Source: a virus. Taken from it: a DNA stretch of 36,930 bases. Numbering within the stretch: the stretch's first letter is position 1; each line of letters opens with the position of its first letter. This document shows positions 3,883 to 36,338 of this stretch, piece after piece. A program made the translations under genes and the position numbers. The notes beneath the pieces are model-generated. The model was not told the DNA's origin and searched no databases. It saw nothing but the letters and a program-made list of their open reading frames with translations. The stretch covers positions 1 through 36,930 of IMG/VR virus record IMGVR_UViG_3300044491_001694; one strand, given 5' to 3'.

Positions 3883-3890
3883 GTATTTAT
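3883..3890 (-). promoter_or_regulatory. Possible late promoter element (ATAAATAC)
   Basis: Read on the minus strand, ATAAATAC overlaps the stop codon of the giant gene and lies 17 bases before the ATG of the 203-residue protein. It resembles the T4-type late -10 box TATAAATA used with gp55. The spacing leaves little leader but still room for the AAAGG ribosome site. The stop codon TAA forms part of the match, so chance is possible. Confidence 0.35.
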
Positions 3891-6800
3891 TTGGGTAGCT
3901 CCACCTTTTCCGCCTTAAAGAAACGTGCTACCAAACTTTCCGCATCATTAAGTGAAATTCCTGGGTCTGACCAGCGTTTTCCTTGTCTTCTAACAATTTT
4001 TACTTTTACACCAACTGCTGGTGTATTTAACAAAGTTACACTTGCTGTTGTTCCGTCCACTGAAAACTCTGCTGGCGCTGTTTTATCAGCTTCAGGAGAG
4101 TCTTGATCAAGTGTTGGATCAAACATTTGTATTGCATTTTTGCGTAATCTCTTGCCTGCAACGAATACTTCAAACTCATTTACGCTTGTAGGCGTAAATG
4201 CTAGAGGAAATACTGTAGTAGATCCGTCACCTATTTGCTCATCTATAATAGTTTGATCCGCATATGGTGCTGTTTGTATCGATCCTTGATTGTATATATC
4301 ACTACCTGCTTCATGCACACTTGCAACTCCTGTTCCTAGTGTTCCTCTTTGTATTTGACGTAATACATTGCCTTGTTTAATTAGGAATTCAATACGCTCA
4401 CCATTTATAAACAAAATACCAGGTATACTACTGTTTTTATCAGGAGTGCTAATAGTAGTAGCATCGTCTAATAAAATTTCTTTATCAAACGTATGCAGAT
4501 CTTTTGCAAGTTTTAATGGCGCAACATCACCTAGTCTCTTGTAAATATTTCTATTTAAAATATCTTTGAATTGACTAAATCCAAACTTAGGTGTAATTTC
4601 ACCTTGTGAACTAAACTGTATAACTTCAATTACATCATTGTCTGCAAATGACCCGTTATACTTTAAGAAGTTTTTATCATCTGTTAATTTATAATCAACA
4701 CTAGGTGTTTGTAATATACCGTTAATTGTTAGCCAAACGTACTGTGCATCAATAGCAGGGTATCTAAGTTTTACTAATCCTGCTTTAATATGATTAAACT
4801 GTATATGGTCTTCTGTTCCTACAGCAATTACACTTCTTGCAACAACATCAAAATTCTGTCTTTCAAAATCCATACTATCGTGTTTATTAAATGTGTACAC
4901 TGTAAGTTTTTCGCCATCTGCTGGTGCTGTGTTAAGCTGTAAATTTGCACCACTATCTACCCAAGTTAGATTAGAGTTTATAGTTTGTACATCACCAAAT
5001 GCATAATCTCCATCTGTTCTTATGTAAACCTCTAATACATCACCATCTCGACCAATTCCTGGCTCAAGTATAATACTACTGTTCGCAGGACGAAGATTAT
5101 ATTCAACTGCAATAGTAAGTTCTTTACCATTAAGTAATATTAAAATGTCTTTAGACTGGAAACTTCCAATTGGTGATTGCCATATTTCTAAGAAATATTC
5201 TCTTTGTGCCGGTGTACAATTAAATGATTGATTGTATCCAGGATTTAGAATTTTATTTCCTTGTTTAACAATTACGTTGTGACTGTTTGGTTTTGCACTG
5301 TATGGTGTTTTATTTAATGTGAATACTTTTGTACTTCCGTCACCTGTAAATTCTGATGTTTCTATTTTACTAAATGAATCTACTGATGTGTATATTGCAA
5401 AATTAATTACACTATTGTCTGGTGGAGCAACACCAAACACAATCATTGCTTTCGGGTCTTCGTCTGTACTATCACCAGTAGAAGTAATTACTGACTCAAC
5501 TGCTTCGCCATTAACTGTAGCATAATAATCTAAATCTTTAGTGTAATGTATTTTTGTTACATAAGCAGTTGTACTTCCGTCACCTCTGAATTCACTTTGT
5601 TCAATTGCATTCTTACCATTACCACTAATACAAATAATATTAACATCTTGATTTGCAGTAGGTGTTGTATTAAGTTTGATTGTTTTATTTCTATAATCTA
5701 CAGTATATAAAGACTGTGCTAATATTGTGTCATTAAGTTTAACAATTAAACCTTCTTTGTTTTGTGGTTGAATACCAAACTCAAATGTTCCATCAATACC
5801 ATTTGTTCTATAAGAATTACTTGATAATATACTACCTCCATCTTTAGGTCTATGGAATACTTTGATATCAACAGTATCTAATACTTGTCCAGGTACTTGT
5901 TCTTCAGGTCCTTTTGATGTTGTTGGACTTATAAAATCGTCACCATCTACAATAATTTCTTCCGGATTAATACCTCTTGCTGTACTAAATGCAAAATCGC
6001 CGCCTGATAGTACAGTATCGTATGATCTTGGATCTGGTAAGAAAGAACCGTCTGACGTTGTTTTTCTAAATACTAATATATCTCCTGATCCGGTTGGAAT
6101 AGATTCTTCGTCTAATATAATAATATCACTTGCTAGATCTCCGGCATCGTCATACAATGCAACTCCTGTTTGTCCTGCACCTGTAATACTTTGCATAACT
6201 GCATTTGTATTAGTAACAGGATTTGCTGTACCAAAATTTGGATCGTCTAATCTAACACCGTTTTTATAAACGTTATAAACTGTGTTCGCTACTAACGGAC
6301 TAGCAAAATTTAGTACTCGTGTACTATCATCGCCAATTTGGAAAACTTCATCTTCAAATGTTGTATCAAATGTGTCATAGGTTGTTGTAAACCATTCATC
6401 TGAATCCCATCCAGTTCCAGTACCAAAATCAAAGCTACTAACTTCAACTCCGCCATAGTCAATACCATCTAATAATTGTGAAAGATCATTTCCGTACATT
6501 CCTGTAGTCGGATTGTAGTATAAATTAATTCTATCCTGTGCTTGCAATAACTCAGGTGCTTTGTTATATTTAATTACAACTGTTTTTCCTACTGCAAGTG
6601 CATTAGTAAATGTAATACGACCGTATGTTCTTGTATAGCCTTTAGTAGTATCTTCAATATTACTAAATGCATACTCACTACGTAATGATTCTAGCCCATC
6701 AACTGTAACTGTAATTTGTGTTGACTTTAACTGCATAGGCCATTTTAAATTAAAGATCTGTTGATCAATCGTTGATGTAAATGTTTGTGTTTCATTTAAT

Positions 6801-9800
6801 GTTTGGAACAAATATGTTCCTGTAACTCTATCAAACTTACACCTAATGTGAGTTGATTTTGCTTTGCCGCCTCCGAGTATTGGACTTAGTCTAGCAACTG
6901 TTCCGGTATCGCCAATAGAACCAGAAACTTGTATAGTTGGTCTTGTTAAATATCCACTACCTGTATTTGTAACTTTAACACTTGTTACTTTGCCACCTGT
7001 ACCAATAAATGCTTCTGCTGTTGCACCTGTTCCGCCGCCGCCACTAATAATAATCTTTGGAGGTGTTTGATATCCACTACCTGGATTAGCAATACTAAAA
7101 GATGTAACTTCAAAACCTACATTGTCTATCCAATGCTTGCTTGGATAATTTTGTATATCCGAAACTCCAGGTACTATTTGTCCATTTATAACTTTTACAC
7201 TTTGTGGAATAATTTTTCCTGCCTGCTCATCATAATACGGTGCAAGATCAAAATCAGTAATTACGTTACTTGCTGGATCAACCTTTTCGTAAGAACTTAG
7301 ATATTCTCTAATTTTAGTTTTGTAAGGTTTCATTTCTTCAACATATTCTTGATAACTTGGCAAGCTATCATTTTGGAATGTAACTTTTTGTTCTAATTCA
7401 CCAATATTATGTTTTGCTTTTACAAAACTAGTTTTAAACGCCCAATCAACATTAGGTTGCTCTGTAAATACATAACGTACACTTGCAAAGAATAATTCGT
7501 TCCAGTGAACTGCAAGATTATCAATAAAGATATCTGATTTTAATATTTCAAGTATTTTTCTAAATTCAGTATTTGGTTCTGTGTCATAGAATATTTTATC
7601 AAAACTAGCGCCATCAAATGCAGTATTACTAGAATTAACATCATAAAGGCTGTTTAAAAATTCTATAGTTCCGTTTTGTCTACCTATAGTCTCATAGCTT
7701 AATGTGTAATCCTGTGTATCCAGGTTGGCAATCTTTCTTAGTAATAACCAACCACCTGTTCCTACACTATTAATCTTAATAATGTCTCCGATTTGATCAT
7801 CAAGTGCATAAATTTCATAGCTAGAATCAATAGTATGGTTAATAAAAGTAAATTGGTTGTAATTTGTTGCATACCAGTCTTTGTACTTCCAATATAGATT
7901 GATATCATAACTTTGTGTAAGTGTTCTTAAATATTCTGTACCATTCCATTGATAAACACTCCATTTGCTACCAATAGTTTCGTCACTTTTAACAAGGACT
8001 GCAAATTTTCTTACTGCTATTGATACATTACTTGTATAATCTCTACCACCATTAACGATAGTTACGTTTGAAATCGCACCATTAGCATCAAGTGCAAGAG
8101 TAAGCACTGCTCCGGTGCCTCCTGTATCTGATATAGTGTAGGTTGGTGTAGAAATATATCCTTGTCCACCATCATTAATTAATACATTTATAATAACACC
8201 GTTTTCAACTTCTAATGTTAAACTAGCAGGTTTAACTCTAGCAACACTAACAAACCTTATTTCAGCATAACTATCAGATGTTGTATCAAAAATTCCTGTT
8301 GCTACTGTAGGTTGAGGATCAAATCCGGTTAATTTAGTTAAATCAAAATCATCAACAATTAAGTTCTTACTTAATGTATTATTTGCTCTTTCAATAAATT
8401 GCTTACGTGCTTCTGTTCTATTAATAAACCAACTCTGTCTCGGTTCGTTTAATGATCCATATTTTTCTTTGATAGGTAAATTTAAATCAGGAACAGGTCT
8501 GTCATTTCTGTCAAATCCTACTAAACTATCAAACCATTTCTGTTCTATTTGTCTATTAGGAATACTTGTTTCAAGACCGTCACTAATTAATTGATATTCT
8601 AAATGTACAGGTTGTTGTTGATTTTCTATAGTCCACCAATTAAAACTAATTGCTGTGCTTTTGTTTTCAATAAACGACTTACAGTTATAAATTGCAAATC
8701 TATTAGAACCCAAAGGTGCAACAAATCTATAACCCATGTCCATCGGAATAGTAATATAATTAATTACATCAGAACATGTTACTACTCTGTTTTCAACCTG
8801 CGGTAATGTTGATTTGTTAAACACCCAATAATAATAGTAATTAGTGAATGTTTCAGAAGTTTCACTATATCTACGTCTAACACTGTAAACACTATCTCCA
8901 TATTTAGTAGTGCCACTAACTCCTTGTTTTATTCCGGATTCAGTTCCAACTAAGTCATCCCATTCACTTGGTAGTAACTTAGATTCTACCCATTCATACA
9001 CTTCTACTCTTGTTCCTGGAAATATTGCATTAAAGTTTGCTGTAGATTCGCTTATAGATCCTTGATGATAATTTATAAACTTAGCACTATCTATATCCCA
9101 CCATAGTTTACCAATCCATTCTGTACTAGTATAGTTTAAGGTATCTGCTGTAATTGTTGCATCTGTAGATACTGAATATCTTGCAGGGTCATAACTTGTT
9201 TTAAAAGATATTTCTTGTTCTGCAGGACCTGCAATTTTTCCTTGGATAGGATCTATATAATCTAAATATGTAAGTAAGCCGTTTGTTTCTTTGTTGTACA
9301 AATATAACCCTTTTAACTTACTTGTGTCTACTGGTAAAACTGGTTCTCTTTTGACTTTCCAAGATGTTGTATTAGCTGGTTTGCGGAATTCTGCAACTAA
9401 TCCTTTATCAAGCACACTACTATTTGGTACTTGTTGTTTAGGCAAGCCAATATACACATGATTTTTATTAACTAGCATTCTATTACCAAAATCTTGTGTA
9501 TCTAAATCATATGTAAAGTTTTGACTGTACAATAATGTATTGTTAATAGTTTCATATAAACTTACAACACCACTTCCTTGATCAATTGTTTGGAATACTG
9601 TTGAATTATTATCGAAAGATGTTGGTAGAGGATTTACAGAAGACTGCTTATCTAGTATATATTGTTCACCTGTTTTCAAATCTTTAAAGGTATCAAAGGA
9701 AGTAGAACTTATCATACTGCCGCCGCGTGATGCAACTGCTAATGTGTTTCCATCAAAGTCAATTTTTGAACCAAACTGTATATTTGATTCTTTACTAATT

Positions 9801-12800
9801 GGACGTAATGTCTGTGAATATACAAATGTATTACCACTCTGTATGTAAAGATAAACTGCTCCGCCGTCATCAACTAAATCACTATTTAATGGTGCACCAA
9901 TTGCTATCTTTCTACCATCTTCTGATACTGCTATTGTTGATCCATAGTCTTCAGTTAGATTAAAAGGTTCTAATATTTGCGAATACTCATAACTTGAACC
10001 GTTAAGTCTGTATACTACAACTTTTCTATTTGCAATACTACTGTCTAATCCTAAAGACACTCCGCCTGATTCAATTTCATATACACTTGTATATGCTGAA
10101 TTAGCAATTAATACTTCTCCTTTTGAACTTACATCAAAATCAGATGCAAATGCTTCTAAGTTTGCTTGTTCTAGTGTACTTTCTACCAGTGAATAATTTG
10201 TATCGTTAGGAACATAACCTAATAGATCTAATCCGCTAGTTTGTGCCGTCCATTGGTTAACATTGAACACGCCGGGTATTAAGTTAGTATTAGCTTTATA
10301 GATTGTTTCACCAAATCTTACATATTCGTTTTCAAAATATGTAGCTGAGATTTTAAAATTACCCCTATAATTTTGTTGTACAGATAATGCCCAGTCCTCT
10401 GTAGAATTTTTATTTACAAAATATACTCTACCTTGGTTATGTTCTGTGCCATCACCTTCAGCATGAATATACAATTTGTAACTACTAGAATCTGGTTGTA
10501 CAAATTTTAGTTTTGTTCCTAGCTTACGATTATTTGCACTATTAGGAACAGTGTAATAATTAATTAATTGGTATGTTACACCTTGAAGTTGATAAATTGC
10601 AAATGTACCTTGCTCGTCAAGTCCTGTACTATATCCTTCAGCAACAACAGGAATATTATACTGCCTTTTCCAATCTAAGTTAATACTAGACGGAGGGTTT
10701 GCTGTGTCAGTAATACCTTGAATAGTATTTGACGAATAAATCCAGTACTCTAAATCGTTTAGATAATTTGTTCCACCTACTACTACCGGAATATTGCTTC
10801 CTGAATCAAAAACTAAAATTGGACCTGATATACTGTTTTCCATTTTTGCTGAATTAATAGGTCCAATAGTTCGTACAGTCGAATCATTTTCAATAAATGT
10901 TGCATTTGAATTAACACCAAAGTCTGATCCTACTGCCCAATTTCCGTTTCTATTTTTGACATAAATTTTTGCAGTAGCAAAGGATCTTTCAATATATGCA
11001 ATTTCAGCTGTTGAACTTGTTGCAGTATCTGTTAATATATCTCCAACGGTTGGAATAAAAGGATCTCCATTAAGATCAAAATTTGTCAATCTAACTTCTA
11101 CATAACCATTCCATATATCTGCAACAGTATGTTGTGTATTGTTAATGTACGTTGATTCAAGACCTATTGCTGTTGGGTTTTGAACTAATCCGTTAACTCT
11201 AATTGTGTTTAGCCAAAGTCTTGTTTTATCACCTACTGTAATGCTGTTTCCATGAGCTAATGGTGTTCTAACCCACCACTTGCTATCAAGAACTTGTATA
11301 TTACTTTGACCTTGTATGTGAGATAATATACCTATTTCTGATACTTTAGTTGGATTAGATAGGTTTTGTAATTGTTTTGTATCCAATATATTACTAAAGT
11401 AAGGATTATTAATAATATTATCTTCTAATGTAATATCTTGGATTACAAGATTAGCATTTGTTTCAGTAAGGTTACTGCTTGTAAATGTACTTCCTACATT
11501 AACTAACCACCAACCTGTATGGTAGTTATCAGTAATTTGTAATGATTCTACATAGTCACCAACTAGAATGCCGTCTGCATAAATTTTTCCTGTACCTTGG
11601 AATGAGCCATTTACGTTTTTAATGTAAACAGTCATTTCATTTTCATTATTGGTTCTTCTATATGCTATTGTAGCTCTGCAAGTATCAGTAGTAATTTCTG
11701 CGCCAGCATTAGGAACACTTAATGTACTTTGAATATGAACAATATGTTGTACTTTGTCAACAATAGTATGGTTACCATTTATAAGAGATTCAGTTAGTGT
11801 ACTATCTCCGTTAAATGGTTGAATACCTGTTTGATTAGAAGTAGTATATTTGTTCCATTTAAGAGTTAAAATGTCGCCTGACTTAGTTCCTTCAAATTGT
11901 TCTTTTTCTGCTCTAACTAAAATATGATCTGTATCCGAATCAGCACCTAATGTATAGTCACCACGTACAATATATTCTATAGTTGGATAAGTTTGTGTAG
12001 TTGCATCATAATCATCTTCTTTTGCTTGTGCATTAGATGAATGGTTACTATAAATTTGTAAAGCATCTGCTTCAACATTTCTATCAGCTTTCCATAACTG
12101 CTCAGAATATAAAACAATATCTCCTTGCGTATATGAAACACTATTATTATAGTCGCCTTTTAATTTACTCTTAACATTTGAAGCATGTGGCGAACCAATT
12201 GCAAGATATTTGCCATCTGGACTTATTGCAACACTTTGTCCAAAGCCTCCATTTGAATCAAACAAAAATGCTTGTTCGTCAATTTGTTGTAAGAATCCGT
12301 ATTCAGTATTATCACTTGGTCTTTGATAAACATAAACACTACCATTTAAATCTTTAGGAGCAGTAATTGCAATACGGTTGTTATCACTTGTTACACTAAA
12401 TGCTGTACCAAAGTCTTTTTCAGTAGAGTCGAGCAATCCGGCCGCAGTATTAACAATATTAGGTTTTAATTCGAATATCTTGTTATTACTTAATACAGTC
12501 CATTTTCCGGTATCATCATCGTCAACCCAAAGTGTATTATTTAAATTTGAAATAGTAAGGCTATCGTTTGCTTGTGCTAATGTTGGAAGCCTTGCTGTTT
12601 TAAATTGTGTTATGTAACCATTAACATCTGCATCGTCTTGGGTTGCTTCTATGTCTTCGCCAACAGTTGATTCTAAAGTAATAACATCTAGAGAAACACT
12701 ATCTACTTTATAATATCCGTCAGTGTTACTAGAAATATCATTAATCCCAATTATTTCGCCTTTAGTAAAATCTGCTGATTTGTCAACTGTAATTGTAAAT

Positions 12801-15800
12801 TTATTAGATTGGCTTTCAGTTACCTTAGTAATTCTAAAATCTGTTGCTACTAATTTATAAACGCCCCAAGTCTGCTGGGATCTATCTGTTGCTGTCCAAA
12901 TATAAGTGTTTGTAGTAACATTTGTTTGGGTTAACAGAGAGTCATAAGATACTAAACTTAAACTAACATCGGAAGGATTAACATATCCTGCTGTCTTAGT
13001 ATAGCTGTTAGCTTCATTAAAATATTTTGTAACTAAAGGTTTATGATCATAGTCTTTACTCTTTACATATATATTATTTCTATCTAATCTATAAATTAAA
13101 GTAGTGTCTTGCGGATTAATAGTATCCACAAGTTCAACCTGTTGTGGTTCTTGTCTATACTTACTTTCATCTAAAACAATATCAAAGTGGTCTTCGCCTG
13201 TAGATGCACCATAACGTCCTACACGCACTGCCCATTCTTCGTAAAACTCTAAACTATCTTTATTTGCACTTCCTAATTTATCAAATAATTTAGTTAAAAC
13301 GTTTTTTGTACCTTTATCCTGGATTGCTCCTTGATAAAACTTATACTGACTAACATCATCATTAATAATATTTTCAAGATACTTACGTTTTTGATATCCA
13401 GTTAAATGCTGTGCAAGTTTTTGTTGTTCAACATCAAAGTTATCAGAATCTAAATCATAAAAATCTGAAAACTGTTTTGCTTTATAATCAAAGTTTGGTA
13501 ATAATTGTTGCTCTGGTTTTTCGTTCAACAATACCCATCCTGCTTCTTGGAATATTTCTGTTCCTGAAATATTTCTAGATGCTACATAATAATATTGTTT
13601 GTTCTTAACTAATGATCCTATTTTATAATCTTGCCAAGCGGCCCATTCGGTAGCGACTGCATCATCAAATATAAAACCTGGAATATTATAAGAACCGTTC
13701 CAATCATCTGAGCGATATCCTTTTACTTTGATTCTTTCTTGTCTATAACCTTGAGCTCTGTTATAAATCACATCTCCAAATACAGTTTTGTTATCAATAA
13801 CAATAGCATGCTCGTGTTGAACTAATGGAATTTTAAGATGATAGATACCGTCATCAGTGTTCTTTACAAAAATTCCAAAATCGTTTGTGTTGTCACGTTC
13901 TGTTGTTGCAAAGTCTGCTAACAATCTTTTTCCATCCGCTTTTAATAAACTATAATCATAAAAGTTGTCATATATGTCATCAACTACCGAATATGGTCTT
14001 GTAAAGGTAATTTGTCTTGCACTAGGACTTAAAGTTAGTATAGTTTCAGCTTCCCAATTTTGTGTAGTCCAGAATAAAAATTCTTTTGCACTAAGACTCC
14101 AATTTTCAATTTCTTCAATATCTTGATTGAAGGAATCAAATTTAAACCCTGTTGCTATAAGATATCTTTGATATCCCATCATAAGATCAACAACGTCTTG
14201 TTTATCTCTGAATAATGTACCGTATGGCATCTCTTGTAAGGTTGTGTCAAAGTTAGTAGAAAGATATGCTGATGCCCCACCTTCTTCAGGAAGCTCTGCT
14301 AGTTTCTGAAAATTATCTTGATTAAAATTGTCACTTGATGTGTGTGATATTTTTACTCTATAATAATTATCAGACAATTCAACAATTTGTCCTACTTCGT
14401 ATAATTTATCTTCTGTCCATGTTAAAAAGTTTTCACTAATTCCACCTACATTTATCACACGATCGTTGTTTTTTCTTATAACAGGATAATATTTAAATAC
14501 AGGATTATCTTTGTCGTATCCTTTAATAATATATCCTGAAGCAGTAATCTCAATAATCATTCCGCTATATGATATTACTTCTGTTGGTATGCTTTTTGTT
14601 AATTGAATTTTATAGTTTTCTTCAGGAACAAAAACATTACCCTGATTTGTAGGAGTTCTTGCATCTAGTATCAATCTAAATTTAGACTTTTGTGTAAATC
14701 CACCTATTTTAGATCCTAGCTTATTTTGAACTGATGTAAGATTAGTTTTGTAATTAATAAATCTAAGAGTATCATTTTCTACAAGATAGCCTTGCATATA
14801 ATTTACAATACCTGCTGTGAATACTCTTTCACTATCAGTAGTACTATTAGGAAATTTAAGTTGGTTTAATTCAATACGTTTACTTGTATCTTTGTAAACC
14901 AATTGTCCTGCTCCGTTACGTACAATTCTACTTCTATCAAAAGCTAGTCCAAAAAACTGTGCTGGCTGATTTAATGCCCATGATATCATTAAACTGAATG
15001 GATAATGTGAGCTTCGACGCCAAGCAGTTTCTACAGGAGCTTCGTCACCAAATGTAAATTCGTAATTATAAGTTGTAGTAATATTACCTTGAGAATATCC
15101 TGTTTCGTTTGGTGCTAAAAGATTACCATTAGCATCAACTGGAATATATTTGTAAATATCTTCATTTTTATATTTGTTTCTATAAGTTACTTTAGATCCA
15201 GATTTTCCTCTAACAATGCCTTTTGATAAATCTTCCCAAAGTAATAAATTATTACTTGTATAAGGAGCTGGTCCATATTCGGTGTCAAACCAATTAGGTT
15301 TTTCTTTAAATCCAAGTATTTCCCATGGATGACTATGCGGTCTATCTGTATTATAAAAATCTTTATATACCGATCTCCAAAAGCCTGTTAGCGGTTGAGC
15401 ATAAGGATCGCTTGCCGCGCCGTAATAATATGTAAAGCCATTGCCTGGAGTATAATATGTATTAGATACATAATCAGGTGTTCCAACAGTTTCTAACCAA
15501 CTGTTAAATTCTGAAATCATTGTTTTCGAAATTTGCTTTCTTGTAAATCCTGTAACTCTTTTTTTGCTAGGAATGTAATCAGTAATGTCTAAAATGTTTT
15601 CATCGTAAGGTTGTTTTAAATTATTATAAATTCTTTTTTCAATATCTAATAAAAGATTATCTCTAAAGTCTCCAAAACATCTCCATAAACTTCCGTCATG
15701 TCCTTGTAGCATTGCTCTTGCATTTGGATATTCATCTATTAATTGTGTATCATTAGTGGCATGATTCATAGTTCCACTAGGCATATAAAACAAAGTATTA

Positions 15801-18800
15801 GATCCTGCAAAAATATGTACGTGAGCTAATCCTGATCCACCATTTCTTATATCTTCTTGCTGTGCTGAAACTTCATCAGTAAACAAAGGATAGAACCAAC
15901 CAACTTTGCCTTTATATGAAGCTGTTGTTGCTTCGTCTCTGCCATATATCTTATAAGGACCTGTCGAGTCTGTTGGTGTTTTAACATAAGTGTCGTCTAA
16001 AAATATTTCTGGGGTGAACTTAGGATATAATCCTAACTTAGTAGGTGTTGGTGGTATCCAACAACCATCTGTTGTAATAAACTCATATACATCTAGTACG
16101 TCACCACCTGTTGGTGCATTTAATAATGTTAAAAATCCGTCTGTACTAACTGTATAATCTTTGTTGATCGTTAGCTGTTTTTCATTTAGGTATACTAGTA
16201 CTGCTTTATCAGATAATGATGTAAAGTCAATACCACGTGTTAGGCTAAAAATTGTTTGTGACGAATCTTCAATGTTATGTGTTACTTTAGTGTCTCCCCC
16301 GTGGGCTATCATATCACTAAAATAAAATGCATCTTTGTTAGTTTTGCTTGAGTTAAGTTCTGTTAGAACCTTATCTACATGTACTTTATCATTCCCTTCA
16401 AACCCAAGTTCGTTAGCTATTCTTAAAAATTCTCTTTTGAACTTAATATATTCAATAGCAGAGTATTTCATAGCTTCAATAGCATCATAATCTTTGTCAG
16501 TAATATTAACTAAAGCAAGATTGACTGGTCCACTATGTTGTACAAATTTTAATCCATACTTTGCTGAATTACCAAGATCTCTTAGATTACTAACTCCTGG
16601 AAATGTGCCTTTAAATCCAGCAACATTATCAACTATACTATCAACATGATCTAATACTTCTCCTAGTGTAAAAGTTGTAACATTTTCGTTCTGTGGATTT
16701 TTCTCAAAGTTAATTGGAAATTCATAAAATCCTACATTTGGTCTTTTTGGCGAACTTGATGTAGTTTTTAAAACTAATTTATCATCAACTACTAAGTTTG
16801 TATTAAATGTAACATATGCGTAATTGTTAACTCTATTAATAGTATAATCAACACCGTCACGCTTTCGAACACTGTTTACATAAACTTTAACGTCTAAATC
16901 ATTTAAGTTTCCGCTATTATTATAAACATCGATAATAAAATTGTTTGTTCTAGCACCAACTGTTTCTTGTTTAACAACAGGCTGTGTAGACTTTGTTAGT
17001 GCCTTTGTCCAACCTGAAACATTTGTAAATGTTGTTCTATCAGTATACTTTCTTAATAATGCAGTGTCTGTACTAACAGTAAGTACATCAGTTAGTACAT
17101 CATATTGATAAGTGTCTAACAATAGATTAAAATCAAAAACAATATCACCACTGTTTTCTATCGTTCTATAGCTTAATGGAAATCCTAGTTCTGTATCGTT
17201 TGCACCTGTACCAACTTTATAACTAAAAATTTTATTTCCAGAAAATGTACTAGAATCTAATGTAGATAGCTGTGCACCTGCATCGTTATATAAATCAAAT
17301 AAAGGTTGCTGATTAACTTTAGTCTTGTCTTGTGTTTGTTTCCAAGTAGTACCATTGTAATAAAAGATTTTACCTTTATAATTTGTACCTGCTTTTACTA
17401 GTACTGTTTCGTTTGTTTGCGGAACTGCATCTGTACTTTCTTTAAGAGCAAGTTGTAGATTTCCGTTTTGACTAATAAAATTAACTTCGTAAATTTTACC
17501 TGCAACAAAGCTATCAGGATCTGCTGTGAACAACACACGCATACCTTTTACTAATTCTACTCCGTCAACAAAATAACCAACTTGGCCTTCGATATCCGAA
17601 AACACATCTTTAGTAACTGTATCAACTAAGTCGACTGAAGTTTTTGATTGTGTTCCAAAATTATAAAGTTTTAATCCTGCATTAAATTCAATAATTGGTC
17701 TTGTAGCTCTATAATTCTGATCTAAAACTACAGGAACATTATTAATTTTTGCAATATTTTCAATTACACTTTTATGTGTCCATTTGTTATAACGTGACCA
17801 TTGATTTCCGTCTTTGGATGCTCTATTAATAACAATATAATCTTTTAATGTAGCATATGATGTTGCATCACCAAAAGGTAATGAACTAAATCCTTGTGCG
17901 TCAAACGCAGAAGCAACATCTGACAAGTAGTCAGCAGTAATAACAAGATCGTCTTCTGAAATTAATTTAATTGATTCTCCAACACCTTCGACATACCAAT
18001 TACCTTCACCATATTTGGCTGGTGTAATTTGTCCATAAAACTTTACCTTCATGCCATTTGTTAATTCATAACCATTTTGCATAGTATAAGTTTTTTTACC
18101 AATAACTTCGTCACCTACATTAAGTTGTGTATTATCTCTAATATCTTTTATAATAATAAGTCCTGATGTTTCAATATCATTTCCATTCGTATAATATAAA
18201 GTATCAGGTGATTCTAAATCAATTGTCCACGTTATTGTGCCTTGTTCAACCTTTTGTTGACTTACTCCTATATTATATAAATTTGTGTCGTCACTTATTT
18301 CAGTACTAGTTCTAATACTAAAAGGCATGTCAACAGCATTAATATCAAAATTATACGTTTGTCCTCTATATAAAGTTAATGTAGGATTGCTTACTTTATT
18401 TTCGTCGCTAAAAATATAACTGTTGTTATCAACATTATCTTGTCGATTAACTGCAAAGGTACTAGTAATATTCCTTGCACTTCCATAAACAGGAACTTCG
18501 TCCGGTCCAGCTGGTAGCCAATAGTATTCTCTAAAATTTACAAACTTATCCCAATTAATATGTGGTTGCCATGCATAGTATTCTTGTGAGCTATACTTGC
18601 TATGATCGATATTATCTGCATTTCTAATTGAACTTGCGTTTATATAATCTCTATAATCTCTATAAAATGTAATGTTGTCTAAATTGTCTGTTACTGTCGC
18701 AACAGGTTCTAATTGATAATTTTCTCTACTAGTAGATACATCACTTATGTAATTGTCCGAAGCTTTAAATGCCTTTGCATCTTTACGACCAATAAATCCA

Positions 18801-18955
18801 TCAACCTTTTCAATAACACCAGGTTGCATCATCTGGTCTAGTGTACTACTTAAAAATTTCTTATTCGCTGTAGTTCGAAAATATCTTGGTAATAAATCAG
18901 CTGATTTTCTTTTTGCGTTATTCCCTGTTGGGATTGGGCTTTCATCCTGTGCCAT
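3887..18955 (-). CDS. Giant baseplate/tail structural protein, 5022 aa
   Basis: One uninterrupted frame of 5,022 codons, some 40% of the window. It starts at the TAATG overlap with the gp6 stop, behind a GGAGGATA ribosome site. The N-terminal 160 residues are rich in Tyr, Trp and Asp (YYAWQPHINWDKF, FREYYWLPAGPD). Around residues 2180-2260 and 2940-3160 are FG-GAP-like beta-propeller blades (FGQSVAISPDGKYLAIGSP; YGSTIAVSEDGRKIAIGAP). Glycine-rich repeats with GGQGY or GSGY cores lie near residues 3585-3645 and 3950-4010. From about 4090 to the end are repeated short units of the GDGSTTVF / GDGSTKVF kind followed by beta strands. There is no transmembrane segment. T4 has genes 7-10 at this place, so the protein may replace several wedge or fibre-base proteins; that is inference. 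I cannot assign it to a named family. The ORF itself is certain, the role moderately so. Confidence 0.85.
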   Translation of the reverse strand: MAQDESPIPTGNNAKRKSADLLPRYFRTTANKKFLSSTLDQMMQPGVIEKVDGFIGRKDAKAFKASDNYISDVSTSRENYQLEPVATVTDNLDNITFYRDYRDYINASSIRNADNIDHSKYSSQEYYAWQPHINWDKFVNFREYYWLPAGPDEVPVYGSARNITSTFAVNRQDNVDNNSYIFSDENKVSNPTLTLYRGQTYNFDINAVDMPFSIRTSTEISDDTNLYNIGVSQQKVEQGTITWTIDLESPDTLYYTNGNDIETSGLIIIKDIRDNTQLNVGDEVIGKKTYTMQNGYELTNGMKVKFYGQITPAKYGEGNWYVEGVGESIKLISEDDLVITADYLSDVASAFDAQGFSSLPFGDATSYATLKDYIVINRASKDGNQWSRYNKWTHKSVIENIAKINNVPVVLDQNYRATRPIIEFNAGLKLYNFGTQSKTSVDLVDTVTKDVFSDIEGQVGYFVDGVELVKGMRVLFTADPDSFVAGKIYEVNFISQNGNLQLALKESTDAVPQTNETVLVKAGTNYKGKIFYYNGTTWKQTQDKTKVNQQPLFDLYNDAGAQLSTLDSSTFSGNKIFSYKVGTGANDTELGFPLSYRTIENSGDIVFDFNLLLDTYQYDVLTDVLTVSTDTALLRKYTDRTTFTNVSGWTKALTKSTQPVVKQETVGARTNNFIIDVYNNSGNLNDLDVKVYVNSVRKRDGVDYTINRVNNYAYVTFNTNLVVDDKLVLKTTSSSPKRPNVGFYEFPINFEKNPQNENVTTFTLGEVLDHVDSIVDNVAGFKGTFPGVSNLRDLGNSAKYGLKFVQHSGPVNLALVNITDKDYDAIEAMKYSAIEYIKFKREFLRIANELGFEGNDKVHVDKVLTELNSSKTNKDAFYFSDMIAHGGDTKVTHNIEDSSQTIFSLTRGIDFTSLSDKAVLVYLNEKQLTINKDYTVSTDGFLTLLNAPTGGDVLDVYEFITTDGCWIPPTPTKLGLYPKFTPEIFLDDTYVKTPTDSTGPYKIYGRDEATTASYKGKVGWFYPLFTDEVSAQQEDIRNGGSGLAHVHIFAGSNTLFYMPSGTMNHATNDTQLIDEYPNARAMLQGHDGSLWRCFGDFRDNLLLDIEKRIYNNLKQPYDENILDITDYIPSKKRVTGFTRKQISKTMISEFNSWLETVGTPDYVSNTYYTPGNGFTYYYGAASDPYAQPLTGFWRSVYKDFYNTDRPHSHPWEILGFKEKPNWFDTEYGPAPYTSNNLLLWEDLSKGIVRGKSGSKVTYRNKYKNEDIYKYIPVDANGNLLAPNETGYSQGNITTTYNYEFTFGDEAPVETAWRRSSHYPFSLMISWALNQPAQFFGLAFDRSRIVRNGAGQLVYKDTSKRIELNQLKFPNSTTDSERVFTAGIVNYMQGYLVENDTLRFINYKTNLTSVQNKLGSKIGGFTQKSKFRLILDARTPTNQGNVFVPEENYKIQLTKSIPTEVISYSGMIIEITASGYIIKGYDKDNPVFKYYPVIRKNNDRVINVGGISENFLTWTEDKLYEVGQIVELSDNYYRVKISHTSSDNFNQDNFQKLAELPEEGGASAYLSTNFDTTLQEMPYGTLFRDKQDVVDLMMGYQRYLIATGFKFDSFNQDIEEIENWSLSAKEFLFWTTQNWEAETILTLSPSARQITFTRPYSVVDDIYDNFYDYSLLKADGKRLLADFATTERDNTNDFGIFVKNTDDGIYHLKIPLVQHEHAIVIDNKTVFGDVIYNRAQGYRQERIKVKGYRSDDWNGSYNIPGFIFDDAVATEWAAWQDYKIGSLVKNKQYYYVASRNISGTEIFQEAGWVLLNEKPEQQLLPNFDYKAKQFSDFYDLDSDNFDVEQQKLAQHLTGYQKRKYLENIINDDVSQYKFYQGAIQDKGTKNVLTKLFDKLGSANKDSLEFYEEWAVRVGRYGASTGEDHFDIVLDESKYRQEPQQVELVDTINPQDTTLIYRLDRNNIYVKSKDYDHKPLVTKYFNEANSYTKTAGYVNPSDVSLSLVSYDSLLTQTNVTTNTYIWTATDRSQQTWGVYKLVATDFRITKVTESQSNKFTITVDKSADFTKGEIIGINDISSNTDGYYKVDSVSLDVITLESTVGEDIEATQDDADVNGYITQFKTARLPTLAQANDSLTISNLNNTLWVDDDDTGKWTVLSNNKIFELKPNIVNTAAGLLDSTEKDFGTAFSVTSDNNRIAITAPKDLNGSVYVYQRPSDNTEYGFLQQIDEQAFLFDSNGGFGQSVAISPDGKYLAIGSPHASNVKSKLKGDYNNSVSYTQGDIVLYSEQLWKADRNVEADALQIYSNHSSNAQAKEDDYDATTQTYPTIEYIVRGDYTLGADSDTDHILVRAEKEQFEGTKSGDILTLKWNKYTTSNQTGIQPFNGDSTLTESLINGNHTIVDKVQHIVHIQSTLSVPNAGAEITTDTCRATIAYRRTNNENEMTVYIKNVNGSFQGTGKIYADGILVGDYVESLQITDNYHTGWWLVNVGSTFTSSNLTETNANLVIQDITLEDNIINNPYFSNILDTKQLQNLSNPTKVSEIGILSHIQGQSNIQVLDSKWWVRTPLAHGNSITVGDKTRLWLNTIRVNGLVQNPTAIGLESTYINNTQHTVADIWNGYVEVRLTNFDLNGDPFIPTVGDILTDTATSSTAEIAYIERSFATAKIYVKNRNGNWAVGSDFGVNSNATFIENDSTVRTIGPINSAKMENSISGPILVFDSGSNIPVVVGGTNYLNDLEYWIYSSNTIQGITDTANPPSSINLDWKRQYNIPVVAEGYSTGLDEQGTFAIYQLQGVTYQLINYYTVPNSANNRKLGTKLKFVQPDSSSYKLYIHAEGDGTEHNQGRVYFVNKNSTEDWALSVQQNYRGNFKISATYFENEYVRFGETIYKANTNLIPGVFNVNQWTAQTSGLDLLGYVPNDTNYSLVESTLEQANLEAFASDFDVSSKGEVLIANSAYTSVYEIESGGVSLGLDSSIANRKVVVYRLNGSSYEYSQILEPFNLTEDYGSTIAVSEDGRKIAIGAPLNSDLVDDGGAVYLYIQSGNTFVYSQTLRPISKESNIQFGSKIDFDGNTLAVASRGGSMISSTSFDTFKDLKTGEQYILDKQSSVNPLPTSFDNNSTVFQTIDQGSGVVSLYETINNTLLYSQNFTYDLDTQDFGNRMLVNKNHVYIGLPKQQVPNSSVLDKGLVAEFRKPANTTSWKVKREPVLPVDTSKLKGLYLYNKETNGLLTYLDYIDPIQGKIAGPAEQEISFKTSYDPARYSVSTDATITADTLNYTSTEWIGKLWWDIDSAKFINYHQGSISESTANFNAIFPGTRVEVYEWVESKLLPSEWDDLVGTESGIKQGVSGTTKYGDSVYSVRRRYSETSETFTNYYYYWVFNKSTLPQVENRVVTCSDVINYITIPMDMGYRFVAPLGSNRFAIYNCKSFIENKSTAISFNWWTIENQQQPVHLEYQLISDGLETSIPNRQIEQKWFDSLVGFDRNDRPVPDLNLPIKEKYGSLNEPRQSWFINRTEARKQFIERANNTLSKNLIVDDFDLTKLTGFDPQPTVATGIFDTTSDSYAEIRFVSVARVKPASLTLEVENGVIINVLINDGGQGYISTPTYTISDTGGTGAVLTLALDANGAISNVTIVNGGRDYTSNVSIAVRKFAVLVKSDETIGSKWSVYQWNGTEYLRTLTQSYDINLYWKYKDWYATNYNQFTFINHTIDSSYEIYALDDQIGDIIKINSVGTGGWLLLRKIANLDTQDYTLSYETIGRQNGTIEFLNSLYDVNSSNTAFDGASFDKIFYDTEPNTEFRKILEILKSDIFIDNLAVHWNELFFASVRYVFTEQPNVDWAFKTSFVKAKHNIGELEQKVTFQNDSLPSYQEYVEEMKPYKTKIREYLSSYEKVDPASNVITDFDLAPYYDEQAGKIIPQSVKVINGQIVPGVSDIQNYPSKHWIDNVGFEVTSFSIANPGSGYQTPPKIIISGGGGTGATAEAFIGTGGKVTSVKVTNTGSGYLTRPTIQVSGSIGDTGTVARLSPILGGGKAKSTHIRCKFDRVTGTYLFQTLNETQTFTSTIDQQIFNLKWPMQLKSTQITVTVDGLESLRSEYAFSNIEDTTKGYTRTYGRITFTNALAVGKTVVIKYNKAPELLQAQDRINLYYNPTTGMYGNDLSQLLDGIDYGGVEVSSFDFGTGTGWDSDEWFTTTYDTFDTTFEDEVFQIGDDSTRVLNFASPLVANTVYNVYKNGVRLDDPNFGTANPVTNTNAVMQSITGAGQTGVALYDDAGDLASDIIILDEESIPTGSGDILVFRKTTSDGSFLPDPRSYDTVLSGGDFAFSTARGINPEEIIVDGDDFISPTTSKGPEEQVPGQVLDTVDIKVFHRPKDGGSILSSNSYRTNGIDGTFEFGIQPQNKEGLIVKLNDTILAQSLYTVDYRNKTIKLNTTPTANQDVNIICISGNGKNAIEQSEFRGDGSTTAYVTKIHYTKDLDYYATVNGEAVESVITSTGDSTDEDPKAMIVFGVAPPDNSVINFAIYTSVDSFSKIETSEFTGDGSTKVFTLNKTPYSAKPNSHNVIVKQGNKILNPGYNQSFNCTPAQREYFLEIWQSPIGSFQSKDILILLNGKELTIAVEYNLRPANSSIILEPGIGRDGDVLEVYIRTDGDYAFGDVQTINSNLTWVDSGANLQLNTAPADGEKLTVYTFNKHDSMDFERQNFDVVARSVIAVGTEDHIQFNHIKAGLVKLRYPAIDAQYVWLTINGILQTPSVDYKLTDDKNFLKYNGSFADNDVIEVIQFSSQGEITPKFGFSQFKDILNRNIYKRLGDVAPLKLAKDLHTFDKEILLDDATTISTPDKNSSIPGILFINGERIEFLIKQGNVLRQIQRGTLGTGVASVHEAGSDIYNQGSIQTAPYADQTIIDEQIGDGSTTVFPLAFTPTSVNEFEVFVAGKRLRKNAIQMFDPTLDQDSPEADKTAPAEFSVDGTTASVTLLNTPAVGVKVKIVRRQGKRWSDPGISLNDAESLVARFFKAEKVELPK

Positions 18956-32391: not shown

Positions 32392-34163
32392 TTAAGATAA
32401 AAAGTTTAACCGTTAAGAACTTCATGAGTGTGGGTAATCAAACCCAAGCAGTTGATTTTGATAAGCAACAATTAACACTTGTGTTAGGAGAAAACCTTGA
32501 CCAAGGTGGTGACGACAGTGGATCACGTAATGGTACAGGTAAGACTACTATTATAAATGCACTAAGTTATGCCCTTTACGGGCTTGCTTTAACAAATATT
32601 AAGCGTAATAACTTAATTAATAAAACTAACAACAAAGGTATGTTAGTTACACTCTCTTTTGAAAAAGATGGACGAGATTATAAGATTGAAAGAGGACGTG
32701 GTCCTAATGTATTAAAGTTTTATGTAGATGGACAAGAACAAGAAATGACAGATGAGTCGCAAGGCGATTCACGTAAAACACAAGAAGACATTATAAGTCT
32801 ATTAGGTATGTCACACAATATGTTTAAGCATATTGTTGCACTAAACACATATACAGAACCGTTCTTAAGTATGCGTGTGAACGATCAAAAGGATATTATT
32901 GAGCAGTTACTTGGTATTACAATACTTTCTGAAAAAGCAGAAGTACTAAAAGATAAAGTAAGGCAAACACGAGAAGCAATTACAGACGAAACTGCTCGTA
33001 TAAATGCTATCGAATCTAGTAATGCACGTATTGGTGAAACTGTACGTAGTTTGCAAACAAAACAAAGTGTATGGAATACAAAACAAAAAGAAGACATTGC
33101 TAAACTAGAACAATCAATTGACGAGTTAGAACACTTAGATGTAGAAAATGAATTAGATAAACACGAACAACTGTCTAGTTGGGAAGAAAAAAATAATGCT
33201 ATTTTGGCTCTTAAAAAAGAATTAAGCACACTAGAGCCAGCACTAGTACGTGCAGACAATTCTGTAGAAAAAGCAAAAAAAGACGCAGAAAACTTAGATC
33301 AAGGAACATGTCATACTTGTGGACAAGAGCTACATGACGAGAAAAAACAAGAACTTGCAGTTAAAAAGAAAAAAGAACTTGAGGATGCTATAGCATATCA
33401 AAAAGAAGTAGGGGATAAAGTTTTAGATGTAACAACGTCACTTAGTGACATTGGAGATATCAACGGCAAGCCTACAACGTTCTATGAAACTCTTAAAGAA
33501 GTATACGATCATAAACAAAATGTATCACAACTACAAGAAGCATTAAGTCGTGCAAAGACAGAAGTTGATCCTTATCAAGAACAGATTGATGAATTAAACA
33601 CAACTGCTATTCAAGAAATTAACTGGGATACAGTAAACAACTTAACAAGTTTAAAAGACCATCAAGACTTTATGTTAAAACTGCTTACAAACAAAGACAG
33701 TTTTATTCGTAAAAAGATTATTGATCAGAATTTAGCATATCTAAACAATAGGCTTACTAACTATCTTGATAAACTTGGATTACCACATAGTGTTGTATTC
33801 CAAAACGACTTGTCAGTTGAAATTACACAATTAGGACAAGAGTTAGATTTTGATAATTTGTCAAGAGGTGAGCGTAACAGACTTATACTTGGTATGAGCT
33901 TTGCATTCCGTGATGTTTGGGAAAGTTTATATCAAAATATCAATCTATTGTTTATTGATGAGTTGATTGATTCAGGTATGGATACTAGCGGAGTTGAAAA
34001 CAGTTTGGCTATTCTAAAGAAAATGGGTAGAGAAAGACAGAAAAATGTATATCTTATATCCCATAAAGATGAACTAGTAGGAAGAGTAACACACGTTCTC
34101 AAAGTAATAAAGGAAAATGGCTTTACATCATATGAGAACGATGTAGAAATACACAATGAATGA
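32388..34163 (+). CDS. 46: Recombination endonuclease subunit gp46 (Rad50/SbcC-like ATPase)
   Basis: The 591-residue SMC-like ATPase has an N-terminal Walker A at residues 45-53 (SRNGTGKTT, Lys52). Long coiled-coil arms span about 180-305 and 315-405, on either side of a zinc-hook CHTC with Cys308 and Cys311. The C-terminal head has an ABC signature LSRGERNR at 491-498, Walker B LLFIDEL at 520-526 and the switch His559 (LISHKDE). T4 gp46 is about 560 residues. ATP binding by the heads drives DNA tethering and gp47 nuclease activity. Translation starts inside the end of gp47. No damage or missing motif is visible. Confidence 0.95.
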   Translation: MIKIKSLTVKNFMSVGNQTQAVDFDKQQLTLVLGENLDQGGDDSGSRNGTGKTTIINALSYALYGLALTNIKRNNLINKTNNKGMLVTLSFEKDGRDYKIERGRGPNVLKFYVDGQEQEMTDESQGDSRKTQEDIISLLGMSHNMFKHIVALNTYTEPFLSMRVNDQKDIIEQLLGITILSEKAEVLKDKVRQTREAITDETARINAIESSNARIGETVRSLQTKQSVWNTKQKEDIAKLEQSIDELEHLDVENELDKHEQLSSWEEKNNAILALKKELSTLEPALVRADNSVEKAKKDAENLDQGTCHTCGQELHDEKKQELAVKKKKELEDAIAYQKEVGDKVLDVTTSLSDIGDINGKPTTFYETLKEVYDHKQNVSQLQEALSRAKTEVDPYQEQIDELNTTAIQEINWDTVNNLTSLKDHQDFMLKLLTNKDSFIRKKIIDQNLAYLNNRLTNYLDKLGLPHSVVFQNDLSVEITQLGQELDFDNLSRGERNRLILGMSFAFRDVWESLYQNINLLFIDELIDSGMDTSGVENSLAILKKMGRERQKNVYLISHKDELVGRVTHVLKVIKENGFTSYENDVEIHNE

Positions 34164-34356
34164 CGATACACACGATAAATTGACCAAGGCATATATGGCA
34201 TATTTTAAGGCAAACGAGAAATTTGAGGCCCGTAATTCTGTACGAACACATAGAGAAAGCAGAAAATGGTTACGAGAGATACGTAGCCTAGCTAAACAGC
34301 GTATGGACGAAATACATCACAAGCATAATTCCAAGAAAGAGGCCCCAGATACATAG
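34156..34356 (+). CDS. Small charged protein, 66 aa, unknown function
   Basis: The ORF overlaps the end of gp46 by eight bases, as expected for a coupled operon gene. The protein is predicted mostly helical and very charged: a first helix (KLTKAYMAYFKANEKFEAR), then an Arg-rich segment (RTHRESRKWLREIRSLAKQR) and a His/Lys-rich end. There is no membrane segment or cysteine. Small proteins of this kind after gp46 seem familiar from marine T4-like phages, but I cannot name a function. The basic helix would suit nucleic acid or gp46/47 binding, which is speculation. Confidence 0.7.
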   Translation: MNDDTHDKLTKAYMAYFKANEKFEARNSVRTHRESRKWLREIRSLAKQRMDEIHHKHNSKKEAPDT

Positions 34357-34374: not shown

Positions 34375-34797
34375 ATGCAATGGACTTATCAAGGTGAAAA
34401 TGTAGAAGAAATACCTGACGGTGTAGAAGCATTTGTCTACTTGATAACAAATAAAGTCAATGGCATGAAGTACGTAGGCAAGAAACTAGCAAAATTCAAA
34501 ACAACCAAGCCACCGCTAAAAGGCAAAAAAAATAAAAGACGTGGAACAAAAGAATCAGACTGGAGAGATTACTGGGGATCCAGCGATAGACTACAGGCTG
34601 ATGTTACACAACTAGGCGAAGACAAGTTTACTAGAGAAATATTACATTATTGTCCAAGCAGAGGCATTGCAAGTTACTTAGAGGCACGAGAACAGTTTGA
34701 ACGCAGAGTACTAGAAACAGATGATTACTACAACGGTATCATTAATGTACGTGTAGGCGGTTCAAAAATTCTAAAAGAACACTTAAAAACATTATAG
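34375..34797 (+). CDS. GIY-YIG-like nuclease, 140 aa
   Basis: Residues 19-38 hold the family core in variant form: FVYLITNKVNGMKYVGKK, where VY takes the place of IY in GIY and YVG that of YIG, with the usual ten residues between. Further on are WRDYWGSSDRL (candidate catalytic Arg) and a helix with LEAREQFERRVL (candidate catalytic Glu). The protein ends with an INVRVGG segment. Similar ORFs in marine T4-like phages are called Seg-like homing endonucleases, but there is no DNA-binding module beyond a Lys-rich stretch at about 42-56, so a general phage nuclease role like T4 endonuclease II is also possible. It lies 18 bases after the preceding gene and just before the structured noncoding region. 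Confidence 0.75.
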   Translation: MQWTYQGENVEEIPDGVEAFVYLITNKVNGMKYVGKKLAKFKTTKPPLKGKKNKRRGTKESDWRDYWGSSDRLQADVTQLGEDKFTREILHYCPSRGIASYLEAREQFERRVLETDDYYNGIINVRVGGSKILKEHLKTL

Positions 34798-35171
34798 GCA
34801 AGCCAATACAGCACATAAGGATAGCGGGCCAGATCGATAATTCCGCTGTGAAAAGGGTGGCGTGAGAACCACACACGAAACATATTGATTCATACGAACC
34901 ATAACGATCAATATAGGCTAGTTGCTGTTAGCCAAGAACCACAATGTTCATAAAAACTCTTTGCAATAGGAACGAAGCGAGAGGTAGCGTAAGCGATGTC
35001 GACGTAGGTTGGGAAAGGTCAGAGCCCATTGAACAGTGAAAACACCTACTTCCGAATCTCGGCTGTGACGAACTCACATGAAGTGTCAAGATTAGATGGA
35101 ACCAGTTAGTAGGTTCCGTCTGACTGAAACAATCTACATGAAGCAATTACAATATCACTAAAGTGATATTG
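34798..35171 (+). ncRNA. Candidate structured noncoding RNA, about 370 nt
   Basis: This stretch follows the nuclease gene and holds no convincing ORF, yet has many short helices by eye. AGCGG 34823-34827 pairs with 34843-34847, and GTGG 34857-34860 with 34869-34872. TATTGAT 34883-34889 pairs with 34907-34913, and GGCTA 34916-34920 with 34929-34933. GTAGGT 35004-35009 pairs with 35044-35049, enclosing TGGG/CCCA (35010-35013, 35025-35028). TTCC plus AATCT (35050-35059) pair with AGATT and GGAA (35089-35101), enclosing TGTGA/TCACA. GGAACC 35098-35103 pairs with 35112-35117 and would compete with the GGAA pairing. It ends at a 9-bp stem-loop at 35150-35171. GC content looks higher than in the flanking genes. 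Strand is assumed from the upstream operon. It matches no RNA class I can recognise. The helices were found by inspection, not calculated. Confidence 0.5.
35150..35171 (+). terminator. Stem-loop, probable terminator or RNA 3' end
   Basis: CAATATCAC (35150-35158), loop TAAA and GTGATATTG (35163-35171) form a perfect 9-bp hairpin, followed by CTTTAATT. The T tract is short, so it may be a partial terminator or an RNA-stabilising 3' hairpin. It would end the gp55-gp47-gp46-nuclease transcript and the candidate RNA. Confidence 0.55.
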
Positions 35172-35337
35172 CTTTAATTCATATCTATTGCTTTAATCAA
35201 AACGAAGTGTATAGTTTGAGCGTTAGCGAAAACAATTTGTTACGAAGTAACAAATCTTAGTTGTTCTTATAGATCATCCACATTAATACTACTGTTAAAA
35301 CTAAAAAATAGAATATAGGCGAACACATAGGAGTTAT
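35172..35337. other. Noncoding AT-rich spacer with a hairpin and a repeat of an RNA-region motif
   Basis: No credible ORF. It contains ACGAAGTG followed by AGCGTTAGCGA (about 35202-35229), which echoes ACGAAGCG ... AGCGTAAGCGA at about 34972-34996. It also holds a perfect 9-bp hairpin (35235-35255). The rest, to the stop of the small minus-strand gene, shows nothing recognisable. Confidence 0.4.
35235..35255. terminator. Hairpin, possible bidirectional terminator
   Basis: ATTTGTTAC, loop GAA, GTAACAAAT is a perfect 9-bp stem. On the plus strand CTTAGTTGTTCTT follows; on the minus strand the flank is TGTTTTCG. It lies downstream of both the plus-strand nuclease/RNA region and the 61-residue minus-strand gene, where a two-way stop would be useful. 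Confidence 0.4.
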
Positions 35338-35523
35338 TTAGTGAAGATCAGGATCTCTTCCAAAACCTGACTTAACACTACTGACTTCGAATGATTCGTA
35401 TCTGAGCTGTAGATGAGGATGTGTATCACGCATTGTTTCTATATATTGCTGTACTTCGTCAATACTGTTTACAATATCAATCTCATTATTGAGATTGTCT
35501 AGTATTCGATATCTTGTAATCAT
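35338..35523 (-). CDS. Small protein, 61 aa, unknown function (GFGRDPDLH ending)
   Basis: The 61-residue protein starts MITRYRILDNLNNEID, has a helix IDEVQQYIETMRDTH, then a strand LQLRYESFEV, and ends KSGFGRDPDLH. The pattern strand-helix-strand is compact and soluble. The ending looks familiar to me from small conserved proteins of marine T4-like phages, which is why I accept this short ORF; no function is known to me. It stands alone on the minus strand between plus-strand genes, divergent from the late gene at 35589. A TTAAATAA box lies only a few bases before its ATG, too close for a normal promoter plus ribosome site. Confidence 0.6.
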   Translation of the reverse strand: MITRYRILDNLNNEIDIVNSIDEVQQYIETMRDTHPHLQLRYESFEVSSVKSGFGRDPDLH

Positions 35524-35588: not shown

Positions 35589-36338
35589 ATGAAAGTATAC
35601 GACATTTTAACAGAATCTAAAAAAGAAGAACAAATTGATGAGTTATCACCAGTTCGTTGGGCAAAAGCTAAGATGGGCAATAAAAGTGCTCAATTAGATA
35701 TTGAAATTGACAAAGAAGTTAAAGACATCTATAAAGATTTCGTAGCAGTAGTTAAACAAGATCCAAAGCAAAAAGGCATGACTGTAGATAGTATATCAAA
35801 CTTTTTAGCGGCCAAAGGATTTGCAAATAGTCCAAAAGAAGTAAAAGCATATATCAAACAAGATATGAGCCTAATGAAAAAACTAGGTAAAGGTATTGTT
35901 AAAGGCACTAAAGCTACAATTGATACAGCAAAAGACGTAGCTGGTGCGGCTAAGTCCGGAGCAAGTGCAGTAGTAGGTGCGGCTAAGAAACTTGCTAGAG
36001 CTCCTGCTAAATCAGGACTAGCGCCTGATCCTCGTCAAGGCGAATTAGATTTAAACAGTATGTATAACGAATCACTTTTATTAGAAGCAGAACTATCAGG
36101 TTCTGAAGTTAAGAAAGTTATCAAACGTTTTGTACAGCAAGGTTTCCAAAAACAACTAGGTGGAAGACTTAATAAAAGTTCATATGGTGATCAAGGTTCA
36201 AGTAAAGCACCTGCTCAAAGTAATACTAAAGCAGATGCAAAGACAATGGCTACACCAACTATGGACATTGATAGTGCAATTAAGTTTCTACAATCAAACG
36301 GTTATAAAGTAACAAAGACTAAAAAAGCAACTGCTTAA
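35589..36338 (+). CDS. Putative packaged internal head (or prohead core) protein
   Basis: The 249-residue Lys/Ala-rich protein begins MKVYDILTESK. This resembles the 10-residue capsid-targeting peptide of T4 internal proteins (MKTYQEFIAE), including the (L/I)-X-E pattern cut by prohead protease gp21, here LTE at residues 7-9. Further possible sites are IDE (16-18) and LLE (164-166). Residues about 100-145 form an Ala/Gly/Lys-rich helical segment (GTKATIDTAKDVAGAAKSG), suited to binding DNA or membranes, and the C-terminal part is flexible and basic with a closing small helical unit. The late promoter at 35560 fits a virion protein. The family itself is not recognised; the internal-protein role is inferred from the N-terminus, charge and promoter. 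Confidence 0.6.
   Translation: MKVYDILTESKKEEQIDELSPVRWAKAKMGNKSAQLDIEIDKEVKDIYKDFVAVVKQDPKQKGMTVDSISNFLAAKGFANSPKEVKAYIKQDMSLMKKLGKGIVKGTKATIDTAKDVAGAAKSGASAVVGAAKKLARAPAKSGLAPDPRQGELDLNSMYNESLLLEAELSGSEVKKVIKRFVQQGFQKQLGGRLNKSSYGDQGSSKAPAQSNTKADAKTMATPTMDIDSAIKFLQSNGYKVTKTKKATA

Follow-up and report, generated by a model that had tools for sequence, protein, structure and literature searches.

A covarying, pseudoknotted RNA of aquatic phages with twin direct repeats, probably distantly related to EGFOA

Introduction

Among catalogued RNAs, EGFOA (RF02955), a phage-borne non-coding RNA with no known function, seems to be closest to the RNA described here. It reportedly stems from a 2017 paper; our literature search turned up no paper on EGFOA and none describing the present RNA. 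Multi-seed sRNAs such as LhrC and RsaE carry repeated identical short pairing motifs, as do the repeats R1 and R2 reported below, but these sRNAs are small and lack the pseudoknotted core found here. HEARO and omegaRNA, which work with IscB, are likewise structured RNAs beside a nuclease gene; here, however, the nuclease is of the GIY-YIG type and dispensable, and no Rfam model of that kind matches. GOLLD and ROOL, too, occur in phages and bacteria and are large and ornate, but they are larger than the present RNA, which their Rfam models do not match. They form homo-oligomers (PMC12286853).

Locus and extent of the RNA

The window is a viral stretch of 36,930 nucleotides (IMG/VR record IMGVR_UViG_3300044491_001694). 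Around the RNA, its + strand carries genes for a late sigma factor, SbcD/gp47 and SbcC/gp46, a 66-aa ORF and a SegE-type GIY-YIG endonuclease ORF (34375-34797; Pfam PF19835, 3e-33). This is followed by a gap of 540 bases (34798-35337), past which the minus strand bears a conserved 61-aa ORF (35338-35523) and then a baseplate-hub gene, assigned from relatives since the window contains only its end. For gp46 and the hub, the nearest cultured relatives are jumbo phages (Phosso, Atu_ph07 and the PA5oct group), and relatives of the window include contigs of up to 268 kb.

The preliminary description had called the gap non-coding and less AT-rich than its neighbours, and both hold: we found no coding signal, and a GC content of 0.40-0.445 versus about 0.28-0.37 in the neighbouring sequence. 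It had also proposed folding energy as a check. The gap does fold better than shuffled sequence (z = -2.34; 2 of 100 shuffles equally good), and the core alone gives z = -1.65, a modest value that would be expected if the real fold contains pseudoknots that the folding program cannot model. By itself the folding energy offers modest support and is not decisive; decisive support comes from the covariation among homologues presented below. Taken together, the gap almost certainly holds a real structured-RNA gene.

The minimum extent of this gene, on the + strand as are all its features below, is predicted at 34798-35175 from homology in more than 200 contigs, covariation and a terminator-like stem-loop at 35150-35171. 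The latter is the clear 3' stem-loop already noted in the preliminary description. The RNA probably continues beyond 35171, as two further hairpins recur in relatives, a conserved one (GTTTGAGCG...GCGAAAAC) at 35214-35233 and another of terminator-like form at 35235-35255; the transcript likely extends to about 35258. The region 35214-35255 combines a short-stem motif, GAGCG-NNA-GCGA, with a terminator-like hairpin, and this combination lies downstream of nearly all such RNAs. In a few relatives a near-perfect sigma-70-like promoter sequence, mostly TTGACA-N17-TATACT, is located between the GIY-YIG gene and the RNA.

Fold and covariation

The fold model is based on a MAFFT alignment (A1) of 76 homologues with 5' domains of types A and B, which supports helices PA, PB, PD, PE, PF, PG and PJ and one long-range pair, 34976-35125. 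The 5' strand of PA (34946-34950) pairs with 35030-35034 and crosses PD as a pseudoknot; both sides change in all five of its pairs, with up to 10 compensatory branches and up to four pair types per position (UA, AU, CG and GC across the helix). PB pairs 34957-34964 with 34977-34983 and has an invariant GGAACGA in its loop, and a small hairpin, PC (34987-34994), marks the place where relatives insert 0 to about 100 nt. PD (35004-35009 with 35044-35049) encloses hairpin PE (35010-35013 with 35025-35028), so that the two span 35004-35049, and the loop GGUCAGAG in this region is nearly invariant. A second pseudoknot, PF (35018-35021 with 35121-35124), crosses PE; PF is itself a predicted, invariant helix, and the single pair 34976-35125 beside it covaries. 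Being invariant, PF and most of PD/PE are plausible as predicted pairings. Helix PJ joins 35061, 35062, 35064 and 35065 to 35134, 35133, 35131 and 35130, respectively; it is paired in 98.7% of cells with one double-sided pair, and R1 lies within it and R2 after it.

Hairpin PG (GATGGAACC/GGTTCCGTC, 35095-35120) is paired in 99.4% of cells, with CG to UA changes in 4. A mutually exclusive pairing had been suggested here, in which GGAA either takes part in the GGAACC/GGUUCC hairpin or pairs with UUCC at 35050-35053. The hairpin covaries and stands, but UUCC is invariant, so the alternative has no support from the alignment. A switch operating through GGAA/UUCC showed no covariation and was rejected.

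Covariation in related phages, the principal check proposed for the preliminary description's structured RNA, was borne out. In the 39-pair model with its two pseudoknots, 98.9% of cells are paired across the 76 homologues, a percentage biased upward since the model was partly read from the same sequences; the weight is therefore carried by the double-sided changes (173 versus 43 in shuffled alignments, 0 of 500 as high) and by the slid controls, which gave 2-41. A model-free count found 18 column pairs with at least five compensatory branches, and 0 in tree-keeping simulations. We applied this compensatory-branch count and a pair counter in place of the standard covariation score. Run with a pooled null, that score yielded no more than 2 pairs at E < 0.05, in our opinion owing to a null inflated by the variable insert. 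Covarying pairs include 79 G-U and 4 A-C combinations, so selection is acting on the fold of the + strand RNA.

Homologues and relationship to EGFOA

More than 200 contigs of IMG/VR have close homologues at the same locus, and many of these contigs come from large uncultured phages (up to 268 kb). Of the loci retrieved by searching with gp46 or GIY-YIG, most bear this element or a related one, and the invariant core was matched in at least 120 stretches. Many phages keep the RNA, marine ones and apparently freshwater ones. Across the family the 5' domain is of one of four types, A-D; the window has type A (GGAUAGCGGGCCAG..., 34818-34940), and relatives have types B, C or D in its place. C/D RNAs have another core at the same locus, a GGCUCUGAGAAAAAGCAACC hairpin followed by an H-type pseudoknot, which covaries too (110-111 with 143-144 and 131-134 with 150-153; 16 in the compensatory-branch test versus 0.6 in simulations). 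More diverged forms follow the GIY-YIG gene in loci L012 and L276. Of the nuclease-bearing contigs retrieved through gp46, 33 of 60 break off inside the element, no more than 400 bases past the GIY-YIG match, in contrast to 1 of about 60 that stops in the 500 bases ahead of gp46; this is probably because near-identical copies in co-occurring strains break the assembly.

The preliminary description's unrecognised RNA is indeed absent from Rfam: in scans with the whole of Rfam 15, no family matched at its gathering cut-off, matches at E values up to 10 looked like noise, and the covariance models of HEARO, GOLLD, ROOL, manA and wcaG did not match. Neither ARAGORN nor Rfam matched a tRNA or tmRNA, and a blastn search of 50,697 cultured phage records returned no homologue of the RNA. 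The equivalent gap of Atu_ph07 contains short ORFs and gave no match with the family profiles.

The EGFOA model gives no match at any of these RNAs at its gathering cut-off of 37.7 bits. Several features nevertheless suggest kinship, a resemblance read by eye in a few sequences. The loop of a G-rich/C-rich hairpin in EGFOA is able to pair with a CCGUC-UAG segment, and freshwater C/D RNAs have CCGUUGG/CUAAC alike; A/B RNAs differ in that the partner of the hairpin loop is 3' and invariant, whereas in EGFOA it is the upstream CCGU segment. When true EGFOA members in viral contigs are read beyond the 108-nt model, repeats appear around a hairpin, a module that lies outside the Rfam model. It is clear in one member (L466), where UAAAGGGUCAG occurs twice as an 11-nt repeat, plausible in L471 (AACUC-GGC / ACAAUCU-GGC, with anchors as in the window), and weak in L473, L477 and Phosso. 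EGFOA members may therefore share the 3' module of the present RNAs, although they have another core sequence and other neighbours (terminase and pol III). The cultured jumbo phage Phosso carries, in a gap of roughly 900 nt between SbcC and the hub, an EGFOA-like RNA whose sub-threshold match scores 29 bits, with E = 0.0046 for the region and 4.8e-4 for the genome. The two thus appear to be linked in architecture, in their repeat module and, by way of Phosso, in synteny; as the EGFOA model fails on these RNAs, we file them near EGFOA and not as members. The new class of phage RNA that had been proposed is accordingly a new family, but probably one with a distant relative in Rfam EGFOA, and so not without kin.

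Two observations concern these relatives themselves. In Sinorhizobium phage Phosso, a highly structured and unannotated gap of roughly 900 nt with a sub-threshold EGFOA match (229779-230699; L459:3780-4700) is flanked by genes for a Holliday-junction resolvase and RNase HI. What appears to be a terminase large-subunit gene directly follows a true EGFOA RNA in L466 (659-783) and in L472.

Direct repeats R1 and R2

Two direct repeats of 7-8 nt, R1 (35076-35083) and R2 (35136-35143), both ACATGAAG in the window, flank the 3' hairpin. R1 follows CUC, and R2 follows UCU and is placed just ahead of the terminator-like hairpin. The repeats are the same within one RNA and differ among phages. Among 93 A/B RNAs, 91 have two copies that agree across 7 nt, with 7 joint and 2 one-sided changes; R is nearly constant there (ACATGAA in most), so its variation is thin. 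An identical 7-mer or longer was present in 126 of 130 C/D RNAs, and the nonredundant ones have 24 distinct R strings (ACAUGAU, GAAUAAU, UCGUGAU, GGAUAAU and others). A RAU core is partly conserved in the repeats. As C/D repeats were detected through identity itself, we constructed a control from chimeras of two C/D RNAs with unlike R, of which 14 of 547 (2.6%) scored as repeat-bearing.

The flanks are C..G for R1 and U..A for R2 in 48 of 80 RNAs. These differences are transitions (C/U and G/A), as they should be if G-U wobble lets both copies pair with a single RNA partner. No complement of R was found inside the RNA (6.43 for its own R versus 6.39 for foreign R), so R1 and R2 are not kissing sites of the GOLLD/ROOL sort. 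Complements showed no clear enrichment within 6 kb of flanking sequence and occurred at chance level in the window; in seven large phage contigs no trans partner was evident, with self matches and scattered matches only. R1 and R2 are the strongest functional clue to this RNA, and the least explained. The preliminary description did not include the co-varying repeats or the pseudoknots, nor how broad the family is, nor the jumbo-phage kinship of gp46 and the hub.

Proposed function

Given a fold under selection, wide spread and two identical co-varying repeats, the best explanation, which we put forward tentatively, is an RNA that acts in trans and has its recognition element in duplicate. A stable, pseudoknotted RNA of about 380-460 nt would be transcribed from the + strand after gp47, gp46 and the GIY-YIG gene, in some relatives from what appears to be its own promoter-like site. 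Its scaffold would present a pair of seeds, R1 and R2, each placed directly 3' of a helix and both pairing with the same partner in trans. That partner would most likely be a rapidly evolving RNA of the host or of a rival phage, and a change in it would require both copies to change. It is conceivable, though rather doubtful, that these RNAs form a large phage superfamily of which EGFOA is one branch, with a re-writable address of 7-8 nt written twice on a pseudoknotted scaffold and evolving against a target in the host or a rival that itself changes. If so, this would be a natural programmable RNA.

That many aquatic phages keep a complex RNA missing from databases implies an important function in very abundant aquatic entities. 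The co-varying repeats make this function testable, by asking what R binds; if EGFOA is kin, they would be the first mechanistic handle on that class, with cultured Phosso as the laboratory entry.

Equal repeats would also be accounted for by a protein of changing specificity. R1 and R2 would then be two sites for one RNA-binding protein, and the RNA a sponge or scaffold. This agrees with the failure to find a complementary partner and with the partly conserved RAU core, but more than 20 distinct strings are many for protein recognition, and the C/U and G/A flanks suit base pairing; we consider it unlikely.

The RNA could also be a cofactor or guide of the adjoining GIY-YIG nuclease, as omegaRNA is for IscB/TnpB. 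The nuclease gene is directly upstream of all A/B RNAs with enough upstream sequence, even when gp46 is distant, and neighbours 120 of 141 C/D RNAs. However, six loci (L312, L348, L355, L377, L384 and L394) have the RNA without GIY-YIG, with unrelated genes upstream of it and the same hub gene on its other side. Three whole contigs of 43-63 kb have the RNA and no GIY-YIG gene, and cultured Melnitz, phiN3 and S-SRM01 have GIY-YIG relatives without such an RNA gap. The nuclease is moreover 73-82% identical in most, yet R varies freely. The obligate linkage to one nuclease that marks RNA-guided nucleases was not seen across the loci: GIY-YIG is a frequent neighbour and no obligate partner, and the link that holds more generally is synteny at the end of the hub gene, since RNAs without GIY-YIG lie beside the same hub gene. 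A nuclease cofactor is thus quite improbable.

A switch, or a cis-acting 3' UTR element that terminates or stabilises the gp46/GIY-YIG mRNA, would suit the position at the 3' end of an operon and the terminator-like hairpins at the end of the RNA. We judge this distinctly improbable, as the RNA is also found behind unrelated genes, promoter-like sites occur between gene and RNA, and the pseudoknots and invariant core exceed what a terminator requires. The switch that had been suggested from the alternative pairings finds no support in an RNA lying 3' of a gene, with a terminator-like hairpin at its end and alternative pairings that do not covary.

Complex pseudoknots and a homing-type nuclease close by could indicate a ribozyme or a mobile intron-like element with GIY-YIG as its homing enzyme. 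This is very unlikely: no Rfam ribozyme or group I or group II intron model matches, the neighbouring ORFs are intact with no gene interrupted, and the helices do not follow the order of a group I core, with a hairpin between PD5' and PA3' and not between P3' and P7'. A DNA-level origin or recombination site, to which the direct repeats and adjoining recombination genes might point, is extremely improbable in view of the G-U over A-C excess among covarying pairs.

Other features of the window

PHROG 447 and many phage records label the SegE-type protein of 34375-34797 'NAD synthetase'; the Pfam SegE_GIY-YIG match (3e-33) indicates that this is a misannotation. The conserved 66-aa ORF between gp46 and GIY-YIG (34156-34356, + strand) and the 61-aa ORF (35338-35523, minus strand), which has homologues of up to 95% identity in many relatives, have no Pfam or PHROG match, and neither has the ORF at 35589-36338, termed a late head gene in the preliminary description. 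In L002, gp46 and GIY-YIG are 99-100% identical to those of the window, yet identity falls to 51% in this last ORF, directly after the RNA; the abrupt change suggests a recombination boundary downstream of the RNA. Elsewhere in the window, a single minus-strand ORF of 5022 aa (3887-18955) probably encodes a tail or adhesion protein.
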